DNA from: an uncultured Planctomycetaceae bacterium
Lineage (GTDB): Bacteria > Planctomycetota > Planctomycetia > Planctomycetales > Planctomycetaceae
Reading direction: 5' to 3'
DNA: 19,087 nt
Assembly: GCA_903921605.1 (NCBI GenBank)
Contig: CAIXQV010000496.1
Location: forward strand, 1-19,087
Made by a program: the position numbers and the translations under genes. The notes beneath the pieces were generated by a model that ran no database searches, had not been told where the DNA came from, and saw only the letters and a list, made by a program, of their open reading frames with translations. Every line of letters begins with the position of its first letter. Position 1 is the first letter of the stretch. Below, in pieces: positions 1-19,087 of the stretch.

Positions 1-115
1 GAAGCCCGGCATGATGCCGCCGATTCCAGAGTCGACGGATGGCGAAGAGATGTTGCCAGTCGATCCCGAAAAGCTTCCGGAGTCAGACGAGCCTGGCGAT
101 ATTCCGGAGAAGTAG
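1..115 (+). CDS. 3' end of an unidentified protein (partial)
   Basis: An open frame enters from the left edge (codons from base 2) and stops at TAG 113-115, leaving 37 residues. The tail is rich in proline and acidic residues (MMPPIPESTDGEEMLPV... then PEKLPESDEPGDIPEK) and looks disordered. Such tails are common on planctomycete exported or membrane proteins, but no domain can be named from this piece. It ends 32 bp before the CHAT gene on the same strand, so it may be the upstream member of the same transcription unit. It could also be a chance open frame, though the composition and the tight spacing favour a real gene end. Confidence 0.6.
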   Translation, partial: KPGMMPPIPESTDGEEMLPVDPEKLPESDEPGDIPEK

Positions 116-147
116 CGTCTTTACAGCTTTCAGAAGATCTTGATCTC

Positions 148-3100
148 ATGATGATTCACCCTGCATTTGTAAGTGTCTCTTTATTCCTCGTGTTGCTCTT
201 ACCTTCCGTCGCATCCGGGCAGGATGCACGGCTCAGCAGCGCGATCACGAAAGCCGAACAGTTCCAAAAGCAGGGGAAACTTGAGGACGCTGCAAACGAA
301 TACGAGAAGGCTCGAAAACTCGCGGTCGAAGTGTGGGGCGACAACCATGCCAACGTTGCCGCTCTCACTCAGGCGCAGGGGATGCTTTGGAAGGATCTGG
401 GCGAATATGCAAAAGCAGAGACGTTGATCCGGAAAGCGCTCGAGATTTCGACCGCAGTTGGTGACACCGAACTTGCCGCTGAAGCCACGAACAATCTTGC
501 TACCGTAAAATGGGAGCTGGCAGACTATGTGGAGTCACAGAAACTTCACGAAAACGGTCTGGCGCTGCTCAGCAAAGCGTACGGCGAGAACTCGCCAGAG
601 GCGGCTGTCAGTCGAAGCAATCTGGCGGAGGCCCTCAAAGAGCTAGGCGACTACTCCAGCGGCGAACCAATGGTGTTGCAATCCATCAAGGTGCTTCGCA
701 ATCATCAGCCCACGTATGCTTCGGAGCTGGCCGCCAGCTTGATGAACCATGCGGATTTCTACGCGCGCCAGGGAATCTATGTTCGTGCGGAACTGCTGCT
801 GCTGGAATCGATGCAGATCAAAGAAAAGGCCTTCGGTGTCAACCATTTCGAGGTCTGTCGTCCGCGAAATAATCTGGCGGCATTGTACTTCGGGATGGGG
901 CAGTTCGAAAAAGCGGAATCCATGCACAAGCAGAATCTGAAAGTGTTCGAGGCCACTCTGGGGCCAAACCATCCTCATGTTGCCAGCATTGTCCTGAACC
1001 TTGCCTTGACGTATCAGATGCAGAAGCGATACGACGAAGCGGTGGCCATGTACGAGCGTGCTCTTTCGATTCGCCGCAAAAGCTTCGCCGCAGACCACGC
1101 GTCGATCTCGTTAACGCTGCATAACTTTGGACAATTCTATACTAAACGAGCAGACTATCCTCGAGCACTGACGACTTTGCAAGAAGCCCTCGCCAGCCGC
1201 ACAAAGACGTTTGGCCCTGACCACATCACAGTGGGCGTGACAAGTATGGCGATTGGCGATGTGCACTATGCACAAGGGCAGTTTGAAGAAGCCAAAGCGA
1301 ATTATGAGGAGTCCCTGCGCATTCGCCAGAAGCAACTCCCCGAGACTCATCACGACCTGGCCTACAGCCACACGACATTGGGCGAGGTGAATGCATCCAC
1401 TGCAAACTGGGATTCAAGCGTCGATCATTTCGATTCAGCCAGACGCGGGTTCCGTCGACATATTGATCAGTCGCTGCCGTCGCTTCCCGAGGCCGATCAG
1501 ATTTCATTTCTTAAGTACGTTGACGAGCCATATCTTCATTCTTCACTTTCGCTTGTGTTGGCGCAACCGCAAAACCAGAAGGTGATCAATTCCACGGCTG
1601 GCTGGGTGCTTAACGGAAAAGCAGTCTCGCAGCAGGCGATGGCCCAGCGGGCGTTGATTGATCGCGACACCAAAGATTCAAAGCTCGCGGCTGCGGTTAA
1701 GGCGCTGCTTGTGATTCGTAAACAACTTGCGTCACTGATGATGTTAAGCGATTCAGAGGAAGGCGATCCTGCAAAGCAAGCTCGCATTGATGAATTGGTG
1801 CGGCAGGAGCAGGCACAGTCGCGAACGTTATCCGAGCAGGGCGGCCGTTCGCCGGGCTCAGCGGCCTGGATTGAGACCGATGACGTTCGTAAGGCGTTGA
1901 AGGATGATTCAGTGCTGGTGGAGATTGTGAGATTCCGAAAGTACGACTTCGCCAATCCTGCGGCCAAAGAAGAAGATTGTCCTGAGCACTATGTTGCGTG
2001 GATCATTCCAAAGAATGAAGCAGGGGAAATTCGTGTGGTCGATCTGGGTGATGCGACAGCGATTGACGAACGTGTTCGCGCTGCTCGAATTGCTTTGAAG
2101 GAAGCACCGCAGTTGATTCGCGAGAACGGCGAGCAGGACGCCGAAAAAATGTTAGAACCTTCGCTTCGGTCTCTGGCAGGCTCAATTCTGTATCCGTTGC
2201 TTGACGCTCTGGAGCCAGCCAAAACGGTTTACCTCAGTCCGGACTCGTTGATGTGGCTTGTGCCCTGGAGTGCGTTACCTCTTCAGGATGGCCAGTATGC
2301 TATTGAGAAGTTCGATATTCGATTCCTTGTCACCGGGCGTGATTTGGTTCGTAACGAAAACACATTCAATGCCTCCAATCCCGTCATTTTCGCCGACCCG
2401 GATTTCAACCTTGATCCTGCAGCGGTCGAAGCAGCAACGCAGCAGTTACTTAAGAAACCTTCGGGTCAAAGAAACACATTGCGAGCGATCGCTCCATCGG
2501 GAAAGTTTAAACTCGGAACCGTGTCACGCTTACCAGGTACAAAGTCGGAAGCGGAAGCGGTCTTGCCAAATCTGGAACTGTTTACTGCCAGAAAGGCCTC
2601 CGTTTATTCTGGCCAATCGGCTCTGGAAGCTGTCTTCAAAACTGTCCGCCAACCCCGCGTGCTGGTCTTAAGTACTCACGGATTTTTCGAAGAGGAAAAG
2701 CCGGCGGGTGAGTCGTCGCAGACTTCATCAAATCCGTTACTGCGTTGTGGTTTGCTTCTCGCAGGCTGCAACAAGCCCATCGATGCGTCGGTGAATGATG
2801 GCGAGGATGGGATTTTGACAGGACTGGAAATTGTCAGTGTCGACTTGCGAGGCACGGATCTGGTCGTCTTGAGCGCTTGTGAGACAGGACTTGGCGAAGT
2901 TCGAAACGGAGAAGGTGTTTCCGGCCTGCGTCAGGCATTCCAATTGGCCGGTGCACGATCGGTCGTTTCTACCTTGTGGCAGATTCCCGACCGAGAAACC
3001 GCCAGATTGATGGCGAGCTTTTTTGACGGTTTGGCAGAGACTCACGATAAAGCCAGTTCGCTTCGTCAATCCCAACTCAAACTTATCGCAGCACGACGTG

Positions 3101-3159
3101 ATCGTAAAGGGGCCGCTCATCCATTCTACTGGGCTGCATTCACCATCACCGGCGAGTAA
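148..3159 (+). CDS. Exported TPR-repeat CHAT-domain protein (caspase-like peptidase fold)
   Basis: Product of 1003 aa. Residues 1-24 form a signal peptide (hydrophobic core VSLFLVLLLP, cleavage likely after VASG), so it should act outside the cytoplasm. Residues about 30-435 are a run of roughly eight or nine kinesin-light-chain-like tetratricopeptide repeats, with recurring GxNHPxVA and ALxIR(Q/R)K motifs. A helical linker follows, then a C-terminal CHAT domain (about 620-1003). Both caspase-like catalytic residues are present: His844 in STHGFF and Cys911 in LSACETG, followed by the family's GEGVSGLRQAFQLAGARSVVSTLW segment. CHAT proteins are caspase-related peptidases; the substrate here is unknown. 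The ATG at 148 is followed directly by a second ATG (151) and either may be used; no strong Shine-Dalgarno site is seen. The next gene starts 65 bp downstream on the same strand. Confidence 0.92.
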   Translation: MMIHPAFVSVSLFLVLLLPSVASGQDARLSSAITKAEQFQKQGKLEDAANEYEKARKLAVEVWGDNHANVAALTQAQGMLWKDLGEYAKAETLIRKALEISTAVGDTELAAEATNNLATVKWELADYVESQKLHENGLALLSKAYGENSPEAAVSRSNLAEALKELGDYSSGEPMVLQSIKVLRNHQPTYASELAASLMNHADFYARQGIYVRAELLLLESMQIKEKAFGVNHFEVCRPRNNLAALYFGMGQFEKAESMHKQNLKVFEATLGPNHPHVASIVLNLALTYQMQKRYDEAVAMYERALSIRRKSFAADHASISLTLHNFGQFYTKRADYPRALTTLQEALASRTKTFGPDHITVGVTSMAIGDVHYAQGQFEEAKANYEESLRIRQKQLPETHHDLAYSHTTLGEVNASTANWDSSVDHFDSARRGFRRHIDQSLPSLPEADQISFLKYVDEPYLHSSLSLVLAQPQNQKVINSTAGWVLNGKAVSQQAMAQRALIDRDTKDSKLAAAVKALLVIRKQLASLMMLSDSEEGDPAKQARIDELVRQEQAQSRTLSEQGGRSPGSAAWIETDDVRKALKDDSVLVEIVRFRKYDFANPAAKEEDCPEHYVAWIIPKNEAGEIRVVDLGDATAIDERVRAARIALKEAPQLIRENGEQDAEKMLEPSLRSLAGSILYPLLDALEPAKTVYLSPDSLMWLVPWSALPLQDGQYAIEKFDIRFLVTGRDLVRNENTFNASNPVIFADPDFNLDPAAVEAATQQLLKKPSGQRNTLRAIAPSGKFKLGTVSRLPGTKSEAEAVLPNLELFTARKASVYSGQSALEAVFKTVRQPRVLVLSTHGFFEEEKPAGESSQTSSNPLLRCGLLLAGCNKPIDASVNDGEDGILTGLEIVSVDLRGTDLVVLSACETGLGEVRNGEGVSGLRQAFQLAGARSVVSTLWQIPDRETARLMASFFDGLAETHDKASSLRQSQLKLIAARRDRKGAAHPFYWAAFTITGE

Positions 3160-3224
3160 CCATTTAAACAACCCTCAAGGTCTACAAGCTTCGTCGGTGA
3201 CCACTACACGCAAAAATACACATC

Positions 3225-5396
3225 ATGAATTCAATAGCCTACCAGATCTCGTGCAGACTTTTCGCCTTGGGTCTGATCAACCTCGTCTTTGCTTCTTTCT
3301 CCGCTGGCGACGAAGTTCAAAGCCGACTCAACGCGGAGGTGAAGGAGATTCTGCGAAGCCGTTGTGCCGATTGCCACGGCGCTGCCGCTTCCTCAACAGA
3401 GTTTGACGTCCTTGACGCGAAATCCCTCATCGAAACGGATATCGTTAAGGCGGGAAACCCGGAAGAATCCCGCCTGATGAAGTTCCTCGTGACTGACGAC
3501 GAGCAGATTCGCATGCCGAAGGATCTTCCTGCGCTGTCATCCAGCGAGATCGACAAAATCCGGACCTGGATCGCCAATGGCGCGACCGCTTTTCCGGAGG
3601 ATGTCGCGATTCCACGGGAAGACCAGCGTGAAGACTCATTCAGCGCGGTCGCTGGAGTGGATTACGTTCTCAAACAGATTCTTGCTCATCAACGCTCACT
3701 GTCGTCCGATCAGGCGAAGTCGATGCGATACTTCAGTTGCAATCATCTGCTGACACGCGGAGCAACGCGTGACGAGCTGAACTTGCAACGCGATGCCTTG
3801 GCAAAGACTGTTAATCATCTGACGTATTCTCGCGATCCTGTGATGATCGAGGCGATCGATGGCGATACCGCGACGATCTTTGCAGTCGATATTCGCAAGC
3901 TCGGTTGGCATCACGAGTCGCTCAAAGTGGTCGGTACCCAGGGCAAGCTCGGCCCTTCACTCAACAACTACGACATGGTGTTGCTTGAGTATCCCTATGC
4001 GATCGCCTATCACGACTCGGATACCTATGAAAAGCTGAAGAACGAGTTCATTGTGCCCTCCGGCATGGTGCGTCCGATCGCCTATATGCGCGTCGATTGG
4101 TTCTGCAGCGTTGCGCTTCAGCCGCCGCTCTATCACGATCTGATGCACATGCCGTCTCATGTGCAGGACCTCGAGCGAGAAATCGTCGGGGTCAAAGCAG
4201 ATGAGGAACTCCTTCATAAGAATGTTGTTCGAGGAGCCGTGATTTTATCCGGAGTCTCTCGCAATAATCGGGCTGCTGAACGATACGTTTCCCCGCACGG
4301 TGCCTACTGGAAATCGATTGATTACGCGACAAATAAAGGGGAGGAAAATATCTTTCGTGATCCGGTCAACCTTCATGGTGTTGGCGGCGAGATGATATTC
4401 AACCTGCCAAATGGGTTGCAGGGGTACTATCTCTCAACTGCCGCGGGGGATCGACTGGATTCGGGACCCACGGAAATCGTGACTGATAAATTCGCTGAAG
4501 ACAAGTTGGTTCGAAATGCTCTTTCGTGCATCCGTTGTCACGATCAGGGGATCAAGACGTTCAAAGATTCTGTGCGGCCCGCGTTTGAGTCGATGCCAGG
4601 CAACCTTGGATTCAGCCGTAGCGAGGTCCTGAAGCTCTATCCCAAACAAGAAGAGCTATCAGCCCTTTTCAAGTCCGATGGCGGACGGTTTATGTCTGCC
4701 CTGGAGAAGGTCCTCGGACATCCCCAAAAGACTGAACCGTTAACGCCAGTCACTCGTCGTTTTCTAGAAGACCCGATCACGTTGACGGCCGCCGCAGGTG
4801 AGCTGGGATTGATAAAGTCCGGGGACCTTGGAGCCGTCTTTCGCAGCCGACAATTTGCGACGTTAGGATTGATTCCGCTCGCAAGTCAAGGTGCAGTTCG
4901 CCGTGATACCTGGGAAGATTATTTCGATCAGATTGTTCGCGAACTGGGGTTAGGAGACGCGATCGTTTCGCTTGATGCCAATACTCGCAATGACTACGCA
5001 CCACTTGGGCACGGCCCCGACATCAAGATAACGACGACAAAGAACAGTCGAACATTCTCGGCCGGAGATCAAATCGCAGTCATCATTACGAACCAGGGAA
5101 AGACAGAAGTATTTGTCGAATTGATTGGCTCTGGAACCAAAGGTGAAAAAGTCGTTCTGATTCCCACAGGCTTGCGACTGAGCCCCGGAGCATCCACGCG
5201 ATTTCCCAGCGAAGGCACCATCACGGTTAAGCCCAGCCTTGGTCATGAGTTGATCACCGTCTTTGCCAGTGAAGCTGAATTTTCTGCAGGAACGTTGTAT
5301 CGGGGTAAGAACATCGCTGATCGCTACGTTCATGAACTCGACACTCAGCGAGTCAGCCCGATCATCAAGAAGAGCCTTGTGATTGAAACGCGATAG
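3225..5396 (+). CDS. Exported di-haem cytochrome c protein with C-terminal DUF4384-like domain
   Basis: Product of 723 aa with an N-terminal signal sequence (about residues 1-28). The first c-type haem site is CADCH (Cys47, Cys50, His51), within a planctomycete-type cytochrome c domain of about residues 33-125; RMPKDLPALSSSEIDKIRTWIANGA has the usual axial-Met and C-terminal helix pattern of that domain. A long middle part of unrecognised fold follows, then a second site CIRCH (Cys435, Cys438, His439). Residues about 599-690 (from DIKITTTKNSRTFSAGDQIAV) resemble DUF4384, a beta-rich domain often found with caspase-like peptidases or kinases. The second CxxCH could be a metal site rather than a haem site. 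Its place 65 bp after the CHAT gene suggests co-transcription. Redox role and partner are unknown. Confidence 0.82.
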   Translation: MNSIAYQISCRLFALGLINLVFASFSAGDEVQSRLNAEVKEILRSRCADCHGAAASSTEFDVLDAKSLIETDIVKAGNPEESRLMKFLVTDDEQIRMPKDLPALSSSEIDKIRTWIANGATAFPEDVAIPREDQREDSFSAVAGVDYVLKQILAHQRSLSSDQAKSMRYFSCNHLLTRGATRDELNLQRDALAKTVNHLTYSRDPVMIEAIDGDTATIFAVDIRKLGWHHESLKVVGTQGKLGPSLNNYDMVLLEYPYAIAYHDSDTYEKLKNEFIVPSGMVRPIAYMRVDWFCSVALQPPLYHDLMHMPSHVQDLEREIVGVKADEELLHKNVVRGAVILSGVSRNNRAAERYVSPHGAYWKSIDYATNKGEENIFRDPVNLHGVGGEMIFNLPNGLQGYYLSTAAGDRLDSGPTEIVTDKFAEDKLVRNALSCIRCHDQGIKTFKDSVRPAFESMPGNLGFSRSEVLKLYPKQEELSALFKSDGGRFMSALEKVLGHPQKTEPLTPVTRRFLEDPITLTAAAGELGLIKSGDLGAVFRSRQFATLGLIPLASQGAVRRDTWEDYFDQIVRELGLGDAIVSLDANTRNDYAPLGHGPDIKITTTKNSRTFSAGDQIAVIITNQGKTEVFVELIGSGTKGEKVVLIPTGLRLSPGASTRFPSEGTITVKPSLGHELITVFASEAEFSAGTLYRGKNIADRYVHELDTQRVSPIIKKSLVIETR

Positions 5397-10190: not shown

Positions 10191-12953
10191 TCATCCAGTG
10201 GTGCGCATACCGGCGGCGATTCCCTGAACCGACAGCCTTAAGAGATCTCGTAATCGTTGAAGATCGCTTTCATCGACTGCGCTGTCCAGCTTTCGGCGCC
10301 TTCGCAGCAGCTCAATCTGGATCAGATTCAGCGGGTCGATATCCGGGTTTCGCACTTCGATCGATCCCTGAAACCAAGGCGTTGTCGCAAGCAATTCTGA
10401 ACCGCCCACAAGATCCAAAATCGTCTGACGGGACCGATCTCGTTCGCTGGCGATCAGCTTCCAGATCTGTCCGCGCTGCTCTTCATCGCTGCACAATTCT
10501 GAATAGCACTGGCCAACGTACATGTCGGTCTTTGCCAATGCGGTCGCTGCGTTATCGATCGTGGCCTGAAAGAATGGCCATTGACGATACATTTCCAGAA
10601 TGCGTTGCCAGCCCGAACGATTACTGTACTTCACTTCCGATAAGGCTGTCCCCAGTCCATACCATGCGGGAATCAGGCATCGATTCTGAGTCCATGCGAA
10701 GACCCACGGAATGGCTCGCAGGTCATTCAGAGTTCGCTGGCCTGTTCGACGAGAAGGCCGTGACGCGATCGGCAGGTTTTCGATTTCTTCGATCGGTGTC
10801 GCCTCGCCGAAGAATTCAATAAAGCCCGGCGTATCGACCAACTGTCGATACGCCTTCAGGGACTGCTCAGCCAGTGATTCCATCAACTCGCGCCATTCGG
10901 CATGGACAACCGGGCGAGGAACATTGCTGGCGACGAGCGTGGCAAAAGTAACCTGTTCCAGATGACGATAGGCCACCTGAGTATCATCGTATCGCTCGGC
11001 GAGAACTTCCCCTTGCTCCGTGAGTCGCAAAGAACCACCCAACGCATCCGGCGGCAATGAAAGTATCCCGCGTGCAGCCGGACCGCCACCACGTCCCAGG
11101 GAGCCACCTCGACCGTGGAAAAATGTCATGCGAATTCCGCGTGCCGCTGCGACCTGATGCAACAGGTCCTGTGCTCGGTCAAGCCCACAACAGGCTGCCA
11201 GATAGCCGCCGTCTTTCGTGCTGTCGGAATAACCGACCATCACGATCTGTCGGTTGTTCTGAGCCTTCAGATGTTCCGCAAAAACAGGCTGATCCAGAAT
11301 GTCTGACATGACTGCCGGAGCAGCCTTCAGATCGCCAATTTTTTCGAACAATGGGATGATTCGCAACGCGTGCGTTGGCACTGTCGTTGTCGCCGCCCCG
11401 GATACCTGTAACTCCGAACAAGCGCGGCGCCACAGCCAGAGCACCGTCAACATGTCAGATGGCCAGCGAGTCATGCTGATGATATGACCGCCCACACAGT
11501 TTGGTCCAAATCGCATAATGGCCTGCAGCAGCATCCGAAACAAGGAGAGTGTTTCGAGTGTCAGCGGCGCCAACGTCGATTCGTCAAGAGGCTTCGCTGT
11601 TCCCATGCTCCGGATCAGCACCGCCTGACGCTCCGGTTCACTGAGTGTCGCAAAGTCGGCACAGTCGCCAGTCACCCTCAGCAATTCTGTCATGACTTCT
11701 CGATAACGCCCGGCATCCTGGCGAACATCCAGTCGAGTCAGATTCAGCCCGAAGACTCGCGTCAGATCAAACCAACGCTGAACTTCTGCAGCCAGCGCCT
11801 GCTGACCATGACATTGTCGCAGACTGACAATCAACGCGTCGACATCGTGTTCCAGTTCATGACCGTCGCAGTACGCCCCGTCCAGAGCAGGCTGCGACAT
11901 GCTGATGCAGCGGGATTGTTTCAGTCGCCATTCAATCAGTCGGATCCATCGTCGATAGATCTCATGCGGTGCGACTCGGGCGAGTGTTTCTGCAAACTCC
12001 GGCCACCGAGTTTCAGCGATCGACAATGCATTGGGGAGATCGTTCTTCAGAGTCACTTCATTGCGTGACACAGACAGAAAATCGTACAACCTGTGGCACC
12101 AGTCAAGATGTCGATCAATGGCCGTATCACGGAGCCAGATTAAAGTACGTTCGGTAATATCCCAGGTGACTCCCGGATGCCCATCGCGGTCACCACCGAT
12201 CCACGAACCAAAGCGCAGGAAGCGGGGAATCGTGAATTCGAACTGAGGAAACTCTCTGGCCAGCGCCATGCGGAGAGATTGGTAGATCTCGGGAACAACT
12301 TCCCACAAACGTGGCATGATCGAAAGACCGCGCTCAACTTCTTCCAGCACCGACGGTCTCATCGGACGCAGGAACTCAGTCTGCCACAAAACTGTCAATT
12401 CGGCCGCCAGTCGAGATCGCACACCGTCCCGCTCGCGCGGCAGAAGATCCTGTCGATCCATCTCCACCAGACAATGGCGCATGCGGCGCAGCTTGGAGCG
12501 AATCGAGCGCCGCTTTGCTTCGCTGGGATGAGCCGTGAAGACCAATTCGACATCAAGGAGATTCAACGCCTGCTGAACTCCTTCTGCGTCGAAGCCCGCC
12601 GCTTTCAACTGTTGAATTGACGTGCCAATTGATTCACTGATCGGATCCGGATGACGGGCCTGCTCTCGATGACGCAGCACACGAACTCGTTGGCGATCTT
12701 CAGCAAGGTTGGCCAGATCAAAGAAGATGCTCAGGGAACGCGCTACCAGGCGAACTTGATCTTCACTCAGGCCCTGAATTTTTTTGGCCAGAACTGTTTC
12801 CGCGCCTGGCACATTGGCTCGACGGTCGCGAGCTAACTGGCGAATCTCGGAAACCAATTGAACGGCTTCAATTCCCTCATCCTTCGCAACAACATGTTCC
12901 AGCAATTCCTCCAGAAGACACATGTCGCGGTGAAGTTGATCATTGTCGACCAT
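10191..12953 (-). CDS. ppc: Phosphoenolpyruvate carboxylase
   Basis: Product of 920 aa; it adds bicarbonate to phosphoenolpyruvate to give oxaloacetate, refilling the TCA cycle in the cytoplasm. The conserved blocks are in order: TAHPSEAKRRS with catalytic His142; GSWIGGDRDGHP (249-260); GYSDSTKDGG with Lys580; FFHGRGGSLGRGGG with His613, Arg615 and Arg621; SRPSRR (731-736); RAIPWVFAWTQ (746-756); and RNPDIDPLNLIQIELLRR near the end. Oddities: the usual TAHPTE is TAHPSE, and the near-universal C-terminal RNTG is RTTG, so Thr918 sits where E. coli has Asn881 of the aspartate inhibitor site. The other three inhibitor-site residues are kept (Arg621, Lys808, Arg868). The ATG at 12953 is supported because the N-terminal helix (LHRDMCLLEELLEHVV) matches the family, although the Shine-Dalgarno site is weak. 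Confidence 0.97.
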   Translation of the reverse strand: MVDNDQLHRDMCLLEELLEHVVAKDEGIEAVQLVSEIRQLARDRRANVPGAETVLAKKIQGLSEDQVRLVARSLSIFFDLANLAEDRQRVRVLRHREQARHPDPISESIGTSIQQLKAAGFDAEGVQQALNLLDVELVFTAHPSEAKRRSIRSKLRRMRHCLVEMDRQDLLPRERDGVRSRLAAELTVLWQTEFLRPMRPSVLEEVERGLSIMPRLWEVVPEIYQSLRMALAREFPQFEFTIPRFLRFGSWIGGDRDGHPGVTWDITERTLIWLRDTAIDRHLDWCHRLYDFLSVSRNEVTLKNDLPNALSIAETRWPEFAETLARVAPHEIYRRWIRLIEWRLKQSRCISMSQPALDGAYCDGHELEHDVDALIVSLRQCHGQQALAAEVQRWFDLTRVFGLNLTRLDVRQDAGRYREVMTELLRVTGDCADFATLSEPERQAVLIRSMGTAKPLDESTLAPLTLETLSLFRMLLQAIMRFGPNCVGGHIISMTRWPSDMLTVLWLWRRACSELQVSGAATTTVPTHALRIIPLFEKIGDLKAAPAVMSDILDQPVFAEHLKAQNNRQIVMVGYSDSTKDGGYLAACCGLDRAQDLLHQVAAARGIRMTFFHGRGGSLGRGGGPAARGILSLPPDALGGSLRLTEQGEVLAERYDDTQVAYRHLEQVTFATLVASNVPRPVVHAEWRELMESLAEQSLKAYRQLVDTPGFIEFFGEATPIEEIENLPIASRPSRRTGQRTLNDLRAIPWVFAWTQNRCLIPAWYGLGTALSEVKYSNRSGWQRILEMYRQWPFFQATIDNAATALAKTDMYVGQCYSELCSDEEQRGQIWKLIASERDRSRQTILDLVGGSELLATTPWFQGSIEVRNPDIDPLNLIQIELLRRRRKLDSAVDESDLQRLRDLLRLSVQGIAAGMRTTG

Positions 12954-13008
12954 AAAATGTGCAATTGCCTTTTTCTTAAACGCTTAAAGTTGCTACCGCT
13001 GCACTGCT

Positions 13009-13023
13009 GCACAGTTTGTGCCA
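13009..13023 (-). promoter_or_regulatory. Sigma-54-like promoter upstream of ppc
   Basis: Read on the minus strand, TGGCAC-AAACT-GTGC has the invariant GG and GC at the correct 10-bp spacing; the only core mismatch is G for the first T of TTGC. Transcription would start near 12997, leaving a leader of about 44 nt before the ppc ATG. One such match in a 160-bp promoter gap is suggestive but could be chance, and no activator gene is adjacent. Confidence 0.4.
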
Positions 13024-15478: not shown

Positions 15479-17662
15479 TCATTTCTCAGAAGCGTGCTGA
15501 CGAGTGCTTTTGATTTTGTGCTTTCGCATTTTTCCGTAAAGCGTGGTGGGCTTGAGTTTCAACTCGGCCGCGGCGCCGTCGGGGCCATAGATTTTTCCAT
15601 GACAGCGGCTCAGGGTGTCCAGAATAATCTGACGCTCGATCTCCGCCAGTGATCTTCCCGCAATCATGGTGGGCGGTTCCGCGCTGAGTGACGGGCGTCC
15701 GAACAGCCAGGATTCGTCAACCACCAGAGTGTCCCCCTGACTGATGATCATGGCCCGTTCAATAATGTTCTCCAGCTCACGCACGTTGCCCGGCCAGTTG
15801 TAGTTCATCATCAGTTCCATTGTGCGACGATCCACTCGCGTAATCGACTTGTTCATGTGCACCGAGAAGCGTCCGATGAAATGATTCAGCAGCGAAGGAA
15901 TGTCCTCCCGCCGCTCACGCAGAGGCGGAACACGGATCGGAAAGACGTGCAGCCGGTAATACAGATCTTCTCGAAATCGGCCCGATTCGGAGTGCAGCTT
16001 CAGGTCCCGATTCGTCGCCGCGATCACACGCGTATCGATCTGAATCGGCTCATTACCACCGACGCGTTCGATCGTGCGTTCCTGAAGAACTCGCAGCAGC
16101 AGCACCTGTGTCTCGATCGGAACTTCCGAAATCTCATCCAGAAAAATGCTGCCACGGTGAGCCAGCTCGAAGCGACCTCGACGACGTTCGGTCGCACCCG
16201 TAAAGGCGCCGGCTTCATGACCAAACAGCTCGCTTGGAATCAGATTCGGAGCCAGCGAAGCACAGTTCACTTTCACCAAAAGTTCATCACGCCGGGAACT
16301 GAGATCATGGATTGCTCTGGCGATCAGTTCTTTTCCCGTACCGGTTTCCCCAAGGATCAGTACTGTAGAATCCGTGTTCGCAACTTGCTCAATCGCCACG
16401 CGCACCTGCTGCATGGCTCGACTGTCGCCAATGATGTTTCCAAAGTCCTTGTCCGTCCGAATCTCATCGCGCAGATAAATATTCTGCTGCTGAAGTTCTC
16501 CTTTTAGCCTATCAATTTCGCCATAGGCGGCGGCATTGTCGATTGAGATCGCCAGTTGCCCGCAGGCTTCATTCAGCAGCTCCAGATCCCAGTGATCGGG
16601 TGCCTCCGACTGCCGCGACGCGATTCCCAGCACTCCGAGGCATTGATTGCGAGCAGTCAACGGAAGGAAAACTTTCGACGCATAACCTGACTCCCAGAGT
16701 TTCTGATCGTCCGGAAACGAATGGGAACTTTCCAATGAACGAACCACGTGCGGCACTCGATGCTGCATAACCCAGTGAAAGGCCGAACCCGAGTGCGGCT
16801 GCACGGCGGTTTCCGTCAGTCTCCGGCGTTCGGAAATGATCTCCACTGCCAGTTCGCTGCGAGCGGTCTCGTGTCCGGCCAGCAACAGGCTCACGCGGTC
16901 ACACTTGAGAAGTCGGTAGATCTGATCGGCCGCATGCTCAAAGATCGTGCGAATGTTGAGACTGGAATTGACAACATCGCCAAACTCCACCAGCAGTCGA
17001 TAGCGGGATTCGGAATGTCGCAGTTGCTGCGTCTGTTTATCAACCTCCTGCTGCAGAGTCTCCAGAAATCCGTCCTTGGATCTGTTCGCCGCCGCCAGCT
17101 CCTCGTTCTTCCGCTGAAGCTCACTGATCAGTTGAGTTTTCTCCAGACTGATGGCAATGTGACCCGCCAGGCGACGAAGCAGGACTACGTGTTGATCCGT
17201 GTAGATGCCAGCTTCGCGACTGGAAAAGAAGATCACACCAATCGGTTTGCCATTCGCGAGCAGCGGCAAGGTCAGACTCGATTTCATTCCTTCCCGACAA
17301 ATCAGCTCTGTCGATACAGATTGAGGTTTCCGGGAAAGGTAGTCGTCCAGATCATTGATGATGCGCGACTGACCTGTGGCCACGAGCGGAGCCAGCGTTG
17401 AACCAGCTAGTCGCGCGGCGTAGCCAACTTTCAGCCTCACTTCCCCATCCGAGCGACAGGACGCAAGCCGCAGTACGTCGCCCGGTTCCTCCAGCAGAGC
17501 GACCGCGATCCGGTTGTACGGCACGATGCCATGCAGCTGGCGATAGACCGAGTCGAACAGATCGTTGAAGCTGTGCCCCATGTTGAGCTGTTCGAGCATC
17601 TGCTCGACCAGTCGCTCATAATCCTCGTGCTTAGGCGGCACAACGGCGGTGGGTAAAGTCAT
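15479..17662 (-). CDS. Sigma-54-dependent activator with two GAF domains (NifA/FhlA-like enhancer-binding protein)
   Basis: Product of 727 aa. GAF domain 1 spans about residues 15-175, a coiled coil about 176-215, GAF domain 2 about 222-380 and the AAA+ domain about 405-640. The AAA+ domain has Walker A GETGTGKE (438-445), the sigma-54 contact loop GAFTGA (485-490), Walker B IFLDE (506-510), the FREDLYYRL arginine-finger segment and [10 protein letters not shown] (623-632). A Fis-type helix-turn-helix lies at 671-716. The intact GAFTGA means it should remodel sigma-54 polymerase rather than act as a simple repressor. The GAF domains probably sense a small ligand or redox state; several cysteines (69, 122, 254, 341, 367) are present but no known metal motif is obvious. 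It is divergent from a sigma-54 promoter driving Fe-S genes, which suggests that operon as its target. No strong Shine-Dalgarno site precedes the ATG at 17662. Confidence 0.93.
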
Positions 17663-17679
17663 CGAAATACAGCTGTCTA

Positions 17680-17693
17680 ACGAAATATGGTCA
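17680..17693 (+). repeat. Upstream copy of a 14-bp repeat, candidate activator site
   Basis: ACGAAATATGGTCA matches ACCAAATATGGTGA at 17806-17819 in 12 of 14 positions. This copy lies 18 bp before the activator's own start codon, so binding here could also control the activator gene. Its centre is about 248 bp upstream of the predicted operon start. Confidence 0.4.
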
Positions 17694-17805
17694 CATTGAA
17701 GCCATTTGTGCCCAATTGCCTGAAAGAACTCGCATTTTGTGGGCTTTAGGCCAGCAATTTCCGCTTGATTCTACCCAAAGGGGGACGGCATGGGCATTCG
17801 GAACG

Positions 17806-17819
17806 ACCAAATATGGTGA
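17806..17819 (+). repeat. Downstream copy of the 14-bp repeat, candidate activator site
   Basis: ACCAAATATGGTGA has a partial dyad (ACCA/TGGT). It lies about 122 bp upstream of the predicted transcription start, within the usual range for enhancer sites of sigma-54 activators. It is 126 bp from the other copy, or twelve helical turns at 10.5 bp, so both would face the same side of the DNA. Confidence 0.45.
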
Positions 17820-17908
17820 TTCCGGAGCAAATGGGGCTTGCTACAGAATCCGTCTTAAATGCCTTCTGGAAAGAGACTTATGCGCACCGCCTTGCCTTAT
17901 TGAACTCA

Positions 17909-17924
17909 TGGCACAGTGGTTGCT
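17909..17924 (+). promoter_or_regulatory. Sigma-54 promoter of the ferredoxin-suf operon
   Basis: TGGCAC-AGTGG-TTGCT is a perfect match to the sigma-54 core (TGGCAC-N5-TTGCW). GG lies at 17910-17911 and GC at 17922-17923. Transcription should start at about A17935, giving a 32-nt leader before the ferredoxin ATG at 17967. The divergent neighbour encodes an activator with an intact GAFTGA loop, which is the partner such a promoter needs. Confidence 0.82.
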
Positions 17925-17966
17925 TCGCTCAGAGACAGCCGCAAACACTCCAAGGGCGACTATCCC

Positions 17967-18245
17967 ATGACTCACGTTGTTGCTCAACCATGCTGCGACT
18001 GCAGATACACCGACTGCGTTGTCGTTTGTCCGGCCGATTGTTTTCACGAAGGTAGACGGATGCTGTATATCGATCCGCAGGACTGCATCGACTGTGAATC
18101 GTGTGCGCCAGCCTGTCCGGCGAAAGCGATCTTTCATGAGGATCGTCTGCCGCTGGAATGGGCACCATTTCGTGATCTGAATGCCACGATGGCGCGGCAG
18201 AGTCCTTCGATCCTTGAACCCCGAAACGTCATGAAGCCAGTTTAA
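17967..18245 (+). CDS. 7Fe-type ferredoxin (FdxA-like)
   Basis: Product of 92 aa, cytoplasmic electron carrier. The cysteine pattern C9-x2-C12-x4-C17-x3-C21-P-x2-C25 and then C40-x2-C43-x2-C46-x3-C50-P matches Azotobacter ferredoxin I, in which one [3Fe-4S] and one [4Fe-4S] cluster are held. By that comparison C9, C17 and C50 bind the 3Fe cluster, C21, C40, C43 and C46 bind the 4Fe cluster, and C12 and C25 are free. An additional Cys10 sits next to a ligand. The ATG at 17967 is preferred: a GTG at 17916 lies inside the sigma-54 promoter, before the expected transcription start. AAGGG lies about 10 nt upstream. As first gene of a Fe-S assembly operon it may supply electrons for cluster building. 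Confidence 0.93.
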   Translation: MTHVVAQPCCDCRYTDCVVVCPADCFHEGRRMLYIDPQDCIDCESCAPACPAKAIFHEDRLPLEWAPFRDLNATMARQSPSILEPRNVMKPV

Positions 18246-18264
18246 TTATACAGGAGATCTCAAG

Positions 18265-18597
18265 ATGTCAGTCAAAATCACGGCAAGTGCCGCACGCGAA
18301 TTCAAGAAGGTCATCGTCGAGCAGCAGATGCCCGACACGATCGCGCTCCGCGTCGGCGTGAAGGGCGGTGGCTGCAGCGGTTTCGAATATCAGCTGGAGT
18401 TCGACAACACGGTCAACGAAGACGCTGACCTGCTTGTCGAAATGCATGGTGTTCGCGTGGCGGTTGATAAGAAGAGTGCCTTGTTTCTGGACGGCACCGA
18501 GATTGATTTCCACGAGGGTCTCGACAAACGTGGGTTTGTCTTCAACAACCCCAACGCTACAAAGTCCTGTGGTTGCGGCAGTTCTTTCTCGGCCTAA
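18265..18597 (+). CDS. sufA: A-type iron-sulfur carrier protein (SufA/IscA/ErpA family)
   Basis: Product of 110 aa. It has the family's three conserved cysteines: Cys37 in GGGCSGFEYQLEF, and Cys102 and Cys104 in the C-terminal SCGCGSSF. These hold an Fe-S cluster or iron for transfer to target proteins. The family's FLDGTEIDF and GFVFNNPNA segments are also present. AGGAG lies 9 nt before the ATG. It starts 19 bp after the ferredoxin stop, and sufB begins 94 bp later on the same strand, so the suf assignment rests on context. By sequence alone it could equally be called IscA- or ErpA-like. Confidence 0.93.
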   Translation: MSVKITASAAREFKKVIVEQQMPDTIALRVGVKGGGCSGFEYQLEFDNTVNEDADLLVEMHGVRVAVDKKSALFLDGTEIDFHEGLDKRGFVFNNPNATKSCGCGSSFSA

Positions 18598-18629
18598 GCG
18601 TCACTTGAACATTCGGCTGTGCATTTGAC

Positions 18630-18649
18630 GGCAGCATCTCATCGCTGCC
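18630..18649. repeat. Small hairpin between sufA and sufB
   Basis: GGCAGC and GCTGCC form a 6-bp stem with an 8-nt loop, in the only sizeable gap (94 bp) of this operon and 42 bp before the sufB start. There is no U-tract. It could mark RNA processing or partial termination that adjusts the ratio of the carrier to SufB, or be chance. Confidence 0.3.
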
Positions 18650-18691
18650 AGTGGCGGCTGAGTTTAATGATCGACATGAGGGGATACGGAC

Positions 18692-19087
18692 ATGTCAACG
18701 GATAACGCATTGCTCGAAGAATACTCGCAGCGTGAGTATAAGCACGGATTCGTGACGGACATCGAAGCGGATGCAATTGCCCCTGGCCTGAACGAAGACG
18801 TTGTGCGGCTGATTTCGTCGAAGAAGAACGAGCCCGACTGGCTTCTGGAATGGAGGTTGAAAGCTTACCGGCACTGGCTGACCCTGAAGGAGCCCACATG
18901 GCACAACGTCAAGTATCCCCCGATTCGCTATCAGGATTCCATTTACTATTCTGCGCCGAAGCAGCAGATCAAACTCAACAGCCTTGATGAAGTCGACCCG
19001 CGCCTGCTGGAGACTTACGAGAAGCTGGGGATCCCGCTGGAAGAGCAAAAAGCTCTGGCGGGAGTCGCCGTCGATGCTGTCTTTGAC
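18692..19087 (+). CDS. sufB: SufB, Fe-S cluster scaffold (5' part, runs off the window)
   Basis: The first 132 codons are present and the frame is open at the right edge. The N-terminus is typical SufB: LEEYSQREYKHGFVTDIEADAIAPGLNEDVVRLISSKKNEPDWLLEWRLKAYRHWLTL, then EPTWHNVKYPPIRYQDSIYYSAPKQ. SufB forms the SufBCD complex, on which new Fe-S clusters are built in the cytoplasm using sulfur from SufS/SufE or SufU. The ATG at 18692 has GAGGGG about 7 nt upstream. The catalytic C-terminal half lies beyond the window, where sufC, sufD and sufS would be expected. Confidence 0.95.
   Translation, partial: MSTDNALLEEYSQREYKHGFVTDIEADAIAPGLNEDVVRLISSKKNEPDWLLEWRLKAYRHWLTLKEPTWHNVKYPPIRYQDSIYYSAPKQQIKLNSLDEVDPRLLETYEKLGIPLEEQKALAGVAVDAVFD

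Follow-up and report, generated by a model that had tools for sequence, protein, structure and literature searches.

Operons for SUF iron-sulfur (Fe-S) cluster assembly are mostly controlled by repressors that sense an Fe-S cluster of their own (IscR, SufR), or by Fur or OxyR at sigma-70 promoters, and a strict sigma-54 promoter is one that has no basal activity. A described arrangement close to the planctomycete locus considered here comes from Bradyrhizobium DOA9, in which a ferredoxin gene (fer) and sufBCDS lie downstream of fixR-nifA (PMC6066989); a second study describes lower levels of suf genes in rpoN mutants under nitrogen-fixing conditions (PMC13207237). Both systems place the gene of an enhancer-binding protein near a ferredoxin gene and a suf operon, although the Bradyrhizobium system is tied to nitrogen fixation and the planctomycete pair, unlike it, is divergent and has its own dyads. 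In Desulfovibrio, the divergent orp operons, with mrpORP, depend on sigma-54 and a cognate regulator (PMC6345978); this resembles our case in putting the gene of an Fe-S biogenesis factor under sigma-54 and a cognate regulator, and it differs in that the factor is not SUF machinery. The suf operon of Escherichia coli is described as controlled by OxyR, IscR and Fur, with IHF, from a sigma-70 promoter (PMC7229158), whereas the planctomycete element is of the sigma-54 type. A term search of the main text of a comparative sigma-54 study returned none of the terms iron-sulfur, Rhodopirellula and planctomycet (PMC3162934), and work on Rhodopirellula baltica records the induction of a gene called nifU under several stresses (PMC2754498). 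Within the open-licence literature, which leaves subscription journals mostly uncovered, we found neither a sigma-54-controlled suf operon outside nitrogen fixation nor a paper on the present pair.

The stretch of DNA analysed here, which we call the window, is 19,087 nucleotides long. In it, a gene for an enhancer-binding protein and a suf operon diverge from an intergenic region at 17663-17966, which is very probably (we would put it at roughly 0.88) an enhancer-dependent sigma-54 promoter for suf, served by the divergent activator as its dedicated regulator. The original prediction proposed this pairing of sigma-54 with a dedicated divergent activator, and it is supported by a conserved promoter element, paired dyads, a fixed spacing and the co-occurrence of activator and operon across genomes. 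Its boundaries of 17663-19087 left out the activator itself, which occupies 15479-17662 on the minus strand.

The activator is a bacterial enhancer-binding protein of 727 amino acids with the Pfam order GAF-GAF-Sigma54_activat-HTH_8 (PF00158 and PF02954 matched). Its AAA+ domain carries a Walker A motif, retained in 46/46 aligned sequences, and a GAFTGA motif at residues 485-490, retained in 44 of the 46, and its helix-turn-helix is of the Fis type; the GAF-GAF-AAA+-Fis architecture with an intact GAFTGA loop, first read from the letters of the DNA, is thus confirmed by domain models and motif alignment. The domain order GAF-AAA+-HTH is shared with the FhlA/NorR/NifA group, from which the protein differs in its target and in scoring under every family cut-off: the best NCBIfam models are FhlA (442 bits, cut-off 830), NifA (387, cut-off 529) and NorR (355, cut-off 476), so that it qualifies as none of these three named equivalogs. 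We considered an Fe-S cluster in the GAF domains and rejected it, since C69 (43/46) and C254 (45/46) are the only near-invariant cysteines of the protein, and a usual cluster would need more. The AlphaFold model (mean pLDDT 71.8, pTM 0.38) gave, among the 50 structure matches listed of 1599, AAA+ activators, GAF-domain phosphodiesterases and a GAF-PHY piece of a phytochrome, from which we drew no hint of a ligand. Among the relatives of the activator are four GAF-GAF proteins of 415-476 amino acids that have no AAA+ domain (P0079, P0098, P0125 and P0172); they may be products of split genes or stand-alone sensors.

On the other side of the intergenic region, the plus strand carries fdx (17967-18245), sufA (18265-18597) and sufB (18692-19087, cut by the window end), the order ferredoxin-sufA-sufB that had been read from the sequence and that Pfam and NCBIfam matches uphold. 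The 92-residue fdx product is FdxA-like (best model FdxA_Protbact, 102.6 bits, under its cut-off of 135), and its nine cysteines are invariant across 13 aligned sequences. SufA belongs to the IscA/ErpA/SufA family (PF01521 and TIGR00049, both above cut-off) and scores under the cut-offs of both the SufA and the ErpA equivalog models; the truncated SufB gives a partial match to NF008773/TIGR01980. In relative L001, whose activator is 95% identical to that of the window in the GAF region, sufB is followed by sufC and sufD, which makes a complete set of sufB, sufC and sufD, and then by a SufU-like gene and a TPR gene, the last two named by eye. At the far end of the window, positions 1-3159 (plus strand) encode a long protein, truncated by the start of the window, that resembles TPR and CHAT-type proteins and matches the NCBIfam FxSxx_TPR and Csx29 models far under their cut-offs.

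A contig scan of genomes, with alignment of the GAF region, yielded 39 loci. Among the 16 closest, 13 have the activator divergent from a suf operon (L001-L010 and L012-L014; the exceptions are L011, L015 and L016), and whole-genome searches added four further divergent pairs (L041, L058, L063 and L064), so that activator orthologues of at least 57% identity are divergent from this type of SUF operon in 17 of 19 genomes. Carriers of the pair include records titled Rhodopirellula rubra CECT 8075, Rhodopirellula sallentina SM41, Neorhodopirellula pilleata Pla100 and Rubripirellula obstinata CECT 8602. More distant activators (L017-L039 and L042-L055) had no adjoining suf gene except at L024, where SufC, being an ABC ATPase, gave a 24% match, with L042-L055 covering only about 1.5 kb per side and many of the other distant loci cut by contig ends. 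Over the 13 divergent loci the first operon gene is the ferredoxin in eight, sufA in three (L008, L009 and L010) and sufB in two (L005 and L013), and a ferredoxin that is not first sits behind sufD (in L005 as a 21-residue match only). A -24/-12-like element is kept where sufA or sufB comes first, and hence the promoter follows the operon and not the ferredoxin. By eye, L005 has the end of a sufA (...KSCGCGSSFSA-stop) between its -24/-12 element and sufB, where tblastn found no sufA; the promoter seems to have been kept there while sufA decayed.

The putative promoter itself, TGGCACAGTGGTTGCT at 17909-17924 on the plus strand, bears out the predicted perfect sigma-54 core: it has no mismatches and is the sole exact match in the 19,087 bases, against 0.03 expected in shuffles. 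Between its end and the ATG at 17967 lie 42 bp, which corrects the 43 bp first given, and transcription would be expected to start near 17935. Relatives that keep the gene order were predicted to keep the element, and they do, in the window and 13 loci, with four further loci in agreement. Over these 14 regions the element has no mismatch in two, one in seven, two in three (L001, L002 and L014) and three in two (L003 and L008); the five imperfect elements count against a sigma-54 reading. It is the single best match of its intergenic region in 12 of the 14, L008 and L014 each having an equally good one elsewhere. L001, too similar to the window, was set aside when conservation was counted, and in the 13 remaining regions GG and TGC never vary, partly as a matter of selection since the elements were chosen as best matches; conservation around the element was followed up to 12 bp behind it, and alignment A3 was made without L001 and L003. 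Elsewhere in the window, a one-mismatch -24/-12 sequence, TGGCACAAACTGTGCA, lies at 13008-13023 (minus strand), about 55 bp before a phosphoenolpyruvate carboxylase gene (10191-12953, minus strand); with up to one mismatch, the window holds two matches in all, and 0.7 are expected by chance.

Upstream of the promoter, the intergenic regions share an inverted repeat with the consensus TGACCAAATATGGTCA, present at least once in 14/14 regions (L011, L015 and L016 were excluded from this motif set and served as held-out loci or exceptions). With a matrix trained on these regions themselves, the 14 regions hold 34 such sites of at least 7 bits; 300 shuffled sets gave 1.3 on average and never more than 6. 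In the window, a matrix from which the window and L001 were withheld ranks a distal dyad, TCTAACGAAATATGGTCACA (17676-17695), first with a score of 21.8 and a proximal dyad, AACGACCAAATATGGTGATT (17802-17821), second with 20.6, and the third-ranking position scores only 8.4. These we take as candidate upstream activator sequences. The distal dyad lies 14-33 bp before the ATG of the activator gene, a position that would allow autoregulation.

The proximal dyad begins 106-110 bp before the T of the -24 motif in all 14 regions (107 bp in the window), and in 300 shuffled sets any 5-bp spacing band was shared by at most 5/14; the distance from the -24/-12 element to the start codon ranges from 42 to 289 bp over the same regions. 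Held-out loci extend the pattern: L058 has a spacing of 108 bp and an element with two mismatches, L041, L063 and L064 have TGGCCC-N5-TTGCW (one mismatch) at 117, 118 and 117 bp, and L011 and L015 have spacings of 139 and 150 bp. Relative to 107.9 bp, and with 10.5 bp to the turn, these shifts come within 0.13 turn of 1, 3 and 4 turns of the helix, a fit that is suggestive and not proof, since it represents only about three independent events and the comparison was made after the numbers had been seen. A strict dyad pattern has 40 occurrences across the 19 genomes, of which 16 belong to the activator locus and 24 lie elsewhere; a reversed control pattern has 2. When 150 candidates per genome, of 804 to 2511, were scored, the dyad model ranked the activator locus first in 16/19 genomes (not in G003, G008 and G009). 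The 24 other places include ten regions with a dyad of at least 15 bits, which were those covered by our check for -24/-12 elements beyond the activator locus; among these ten regions of the 19 genomes only L095 has such an element, with two mismatches, within 40-260 bp, and no second dyad target was found.

A palindromic Gibbs search between dyad and promoter, with one site forced per region, its position free, and L001 left out, recovered a third conserved dyad, CGYAAG-N18-CTTRCG, at 17853-17882 in the window. It reached 17.2 bits in the 13 non-redundant regions, against 11.4 +/- 0.33 (maximum 12.0) in 15 shuffled sets, and all 13 sites fell 25-29 bp before the -24 motif despite their freedom of position. 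With a matrix that left out L003 and L014, the best positions in held-out loci were 25-28 bp before -24 in the four suf loci and 37-38 bp in L011 and L015; of 200 shuffles, the score was reached by none for L041 and L064, one for L058, two each for L011 and L015, and 32 for L063, where the third dyad is therefore weak. The placement would suit a bend-protein site of a sigma-54 promoter. The third dyad could be a bend site or a second operator, either of which we regard as a candidate role, and its symmetry would suit a dimeric regulator. The suf operon of E. coli, described above, likewise has multi-input control, and a site for a bending protein that separates activator from promoter would have its parallel there.

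Activator and operon also travel together. Among 396 genomes of the order, with cut-offs of E <=1e-100 for the activator and E <=1e-150 for SufB and at most four candidates scored per genome (the activator and SufB draws agree in their handles wherever these are shown), the activator is present in 11, this SUF type in 11 and both in 10, an overlap whose chance probability, leaving kinship out of account, is 5e-18. Dyads and a -24/-12-like element at the spacings given above are present in each of the ten. The one genome with the SUF type (71% identity) and no detected activator, G717, has a contig that begins 1.1 kb before sufB, and those 1.1 kb contain neither dyad nor -24/-12 element; the one with the activator and no SUF of this type, G011, has a locus of the sigma-factor kind discussed below. 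In a sample of 57 genomes, this SufB type occurs in 2, only another type (41-46% identity) in 48, and no match in 7. Four activator genomes (G003, G002, G009 and G005) have a second SUF type in the order sufC-sufB-sufD at L107-L110; at three of these loci the gene ahead of it looks, by eye, like nuoB. The sigma factor itself is available in these organisms, rpoN being present in 18 of the 19 relatives; no match was found in G003, a genome split over hundreds of contigs that is the source of L003, one of the two weakest elements. That genome, together with the exceptions L011, L015 and L016, counts against the sigma-54 reading of suf. Rrf2-family proteins occur somewhere in all 19 genomes, and other Fe-S or redox regulators may therefore exist in these cells.

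The alternative that fares best accepts the element and makes it an inducible booster: a weak sigma-70-type promoter would supply a basal suf transcript, which the activator would raise under stress. In 10 of the 19 activator genomes, some of them perhaps incomplete, this is the only SUF type found (G004, G006, G007, G008, G010, G014, G708, G714, G762 and G290), a count that refers to SUF systems, with ISC and NIF outside it. The switch may thus command the main SUF supply there; a basic supply should need basal expression, and strict sigma-54 control is awkward for one that is possibly essential. A consensus scan of 17600-18300, which can miss promoters, found no sigma-70-like site, but with 0.5 expected by chance this absence is weak counter-evidence, and planctomycete sigma-70 promoters may deviate from the consensus used. 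We regard a basal promoter as possible, if on balance doubtful.

A second alternative starts from the exceptions, and would make the activator a general stress regulator whose ancestral target was an alternative sigma-70-family gene, suf having been captured later by the same cassette. A gene for a sigma-70-family factor takes the place of suf behind the dyads and the -24/-12 element at L011 and L015, with a ferredoxin gene after it at L011. G011 has no SufB of this type, and only the other SUF type was seen in G015 and, judged by score and a neighbouring sufD (its sufB match is partial), in G011. The L015 sigma factor has 32-45% matches in other genomes, many of them long frames that resemble the main sigma factor; among the listed dyads, compared by eye, none lies beside its relatives outside G011 and G015. 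Set against this, sigma-type loci number only two and, of the 11 genomes in the order sample that have the activator, 10 have the SUF operon; this order of events seems to us unlikely, a little more so than a basal promoter. At L016, the third exception, which matches in pieces at 53-60% identity, both SUF and the dyad are missing. L015 also has a prismane (hybrid-cluster-protein) family gene at 2377-3669 (minus strand) and a CRP-type regulator gene at 3934-4623 (plus strand), some 3-5 kb from the activator/sigma-factor pair, neighbours that possibly hint at NO or low-oxygen stress.

A NifA-type module for nitrogen fixation, in which suf would serve nitrogenase, has the Bradyrhizobium arrangement and the fall of suf in rpoN mutants in its favour (PMC6066989, PMC13207237). 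We nevertheless hold it to be very improbable: nifH occurs in only 1 of the 19 related genomes, and that one, G011, is without this SUF type, in keeping with the original suggestion of a general Fe-S supply operon with no nif gene in view; the activator, moreover, falls short of the NifA cut-off. Chance matches in merely related sequence deserve next to no credence, for although the window and L001 are 80% identical over the 85 bp upstream of -24, and an alignment with cheap gaps puts the best other pairs at 78-83% across 72-264 columns (inflated, we think, by the gaps), the ungapped median pair identity is 28% and the next best pair reaches 46%, shuffled sets came no nearer to the shared spacing than 5/14, and in 133,793 bp from 32 loci with the other SUF type there is no dyad of at least 13 bits and there are two stray elements with up to one mismatch.

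The reading we prefer is therefore one of ordinary sigma-54 machinery put to an unusual use, the control of suf apart from nitrogen fixation, and the conserved architecture suggests how it might work. The divergent activator would bind the two TGACCAAATATGGTCA-type dyads, as sigma-54 RNA polymerase waits in a closed complex at 17909-17924. DNA looping, perhaps aided by a protein on the third dyad, would bring the ATPase ring of the activator to the polymerase, and ATP hydrolysis, gated by a signal read through the two GAF domains, for which redox, iron or NO is so far a guess, would open the promoter for transcription of fdx-sufA-sufB-sufC-sufD and the genes that follow. We infer activator binding, looping, sigma-54 dependence and autoregulation through the distal dyad from the arrangement of these sites.

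More speculatively, the GAF-GAF activator, the dyads, the middle dyad and the -24/-12 element may together form a portable cassette that places the only SUF system of some planctomycetes under all-or-none, ATP-gated control with no part in nitrogen fixation. Its target would have been swapped between suf and an alternative sigma factor with the elements kept on one face of the helix (at about 108, 118, 139 and 150 bp), and a second regulator, bound at the middle dyad, would combine another signal with that of the activator. Taken jointly, these proposals are tentative and rather unlikely to hold in full.

For the organisms that carry the pair, the provision of SUF seems to require both an ATP-consuming activator and a sigma factor without basal activity, which raises the question of how a cell can afford strict positive control over a basic supply. 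The fixed architecture of the promoter offers exact sites for mutation, and the dyads provide an enhancer motif for work on planctomycete regulons.
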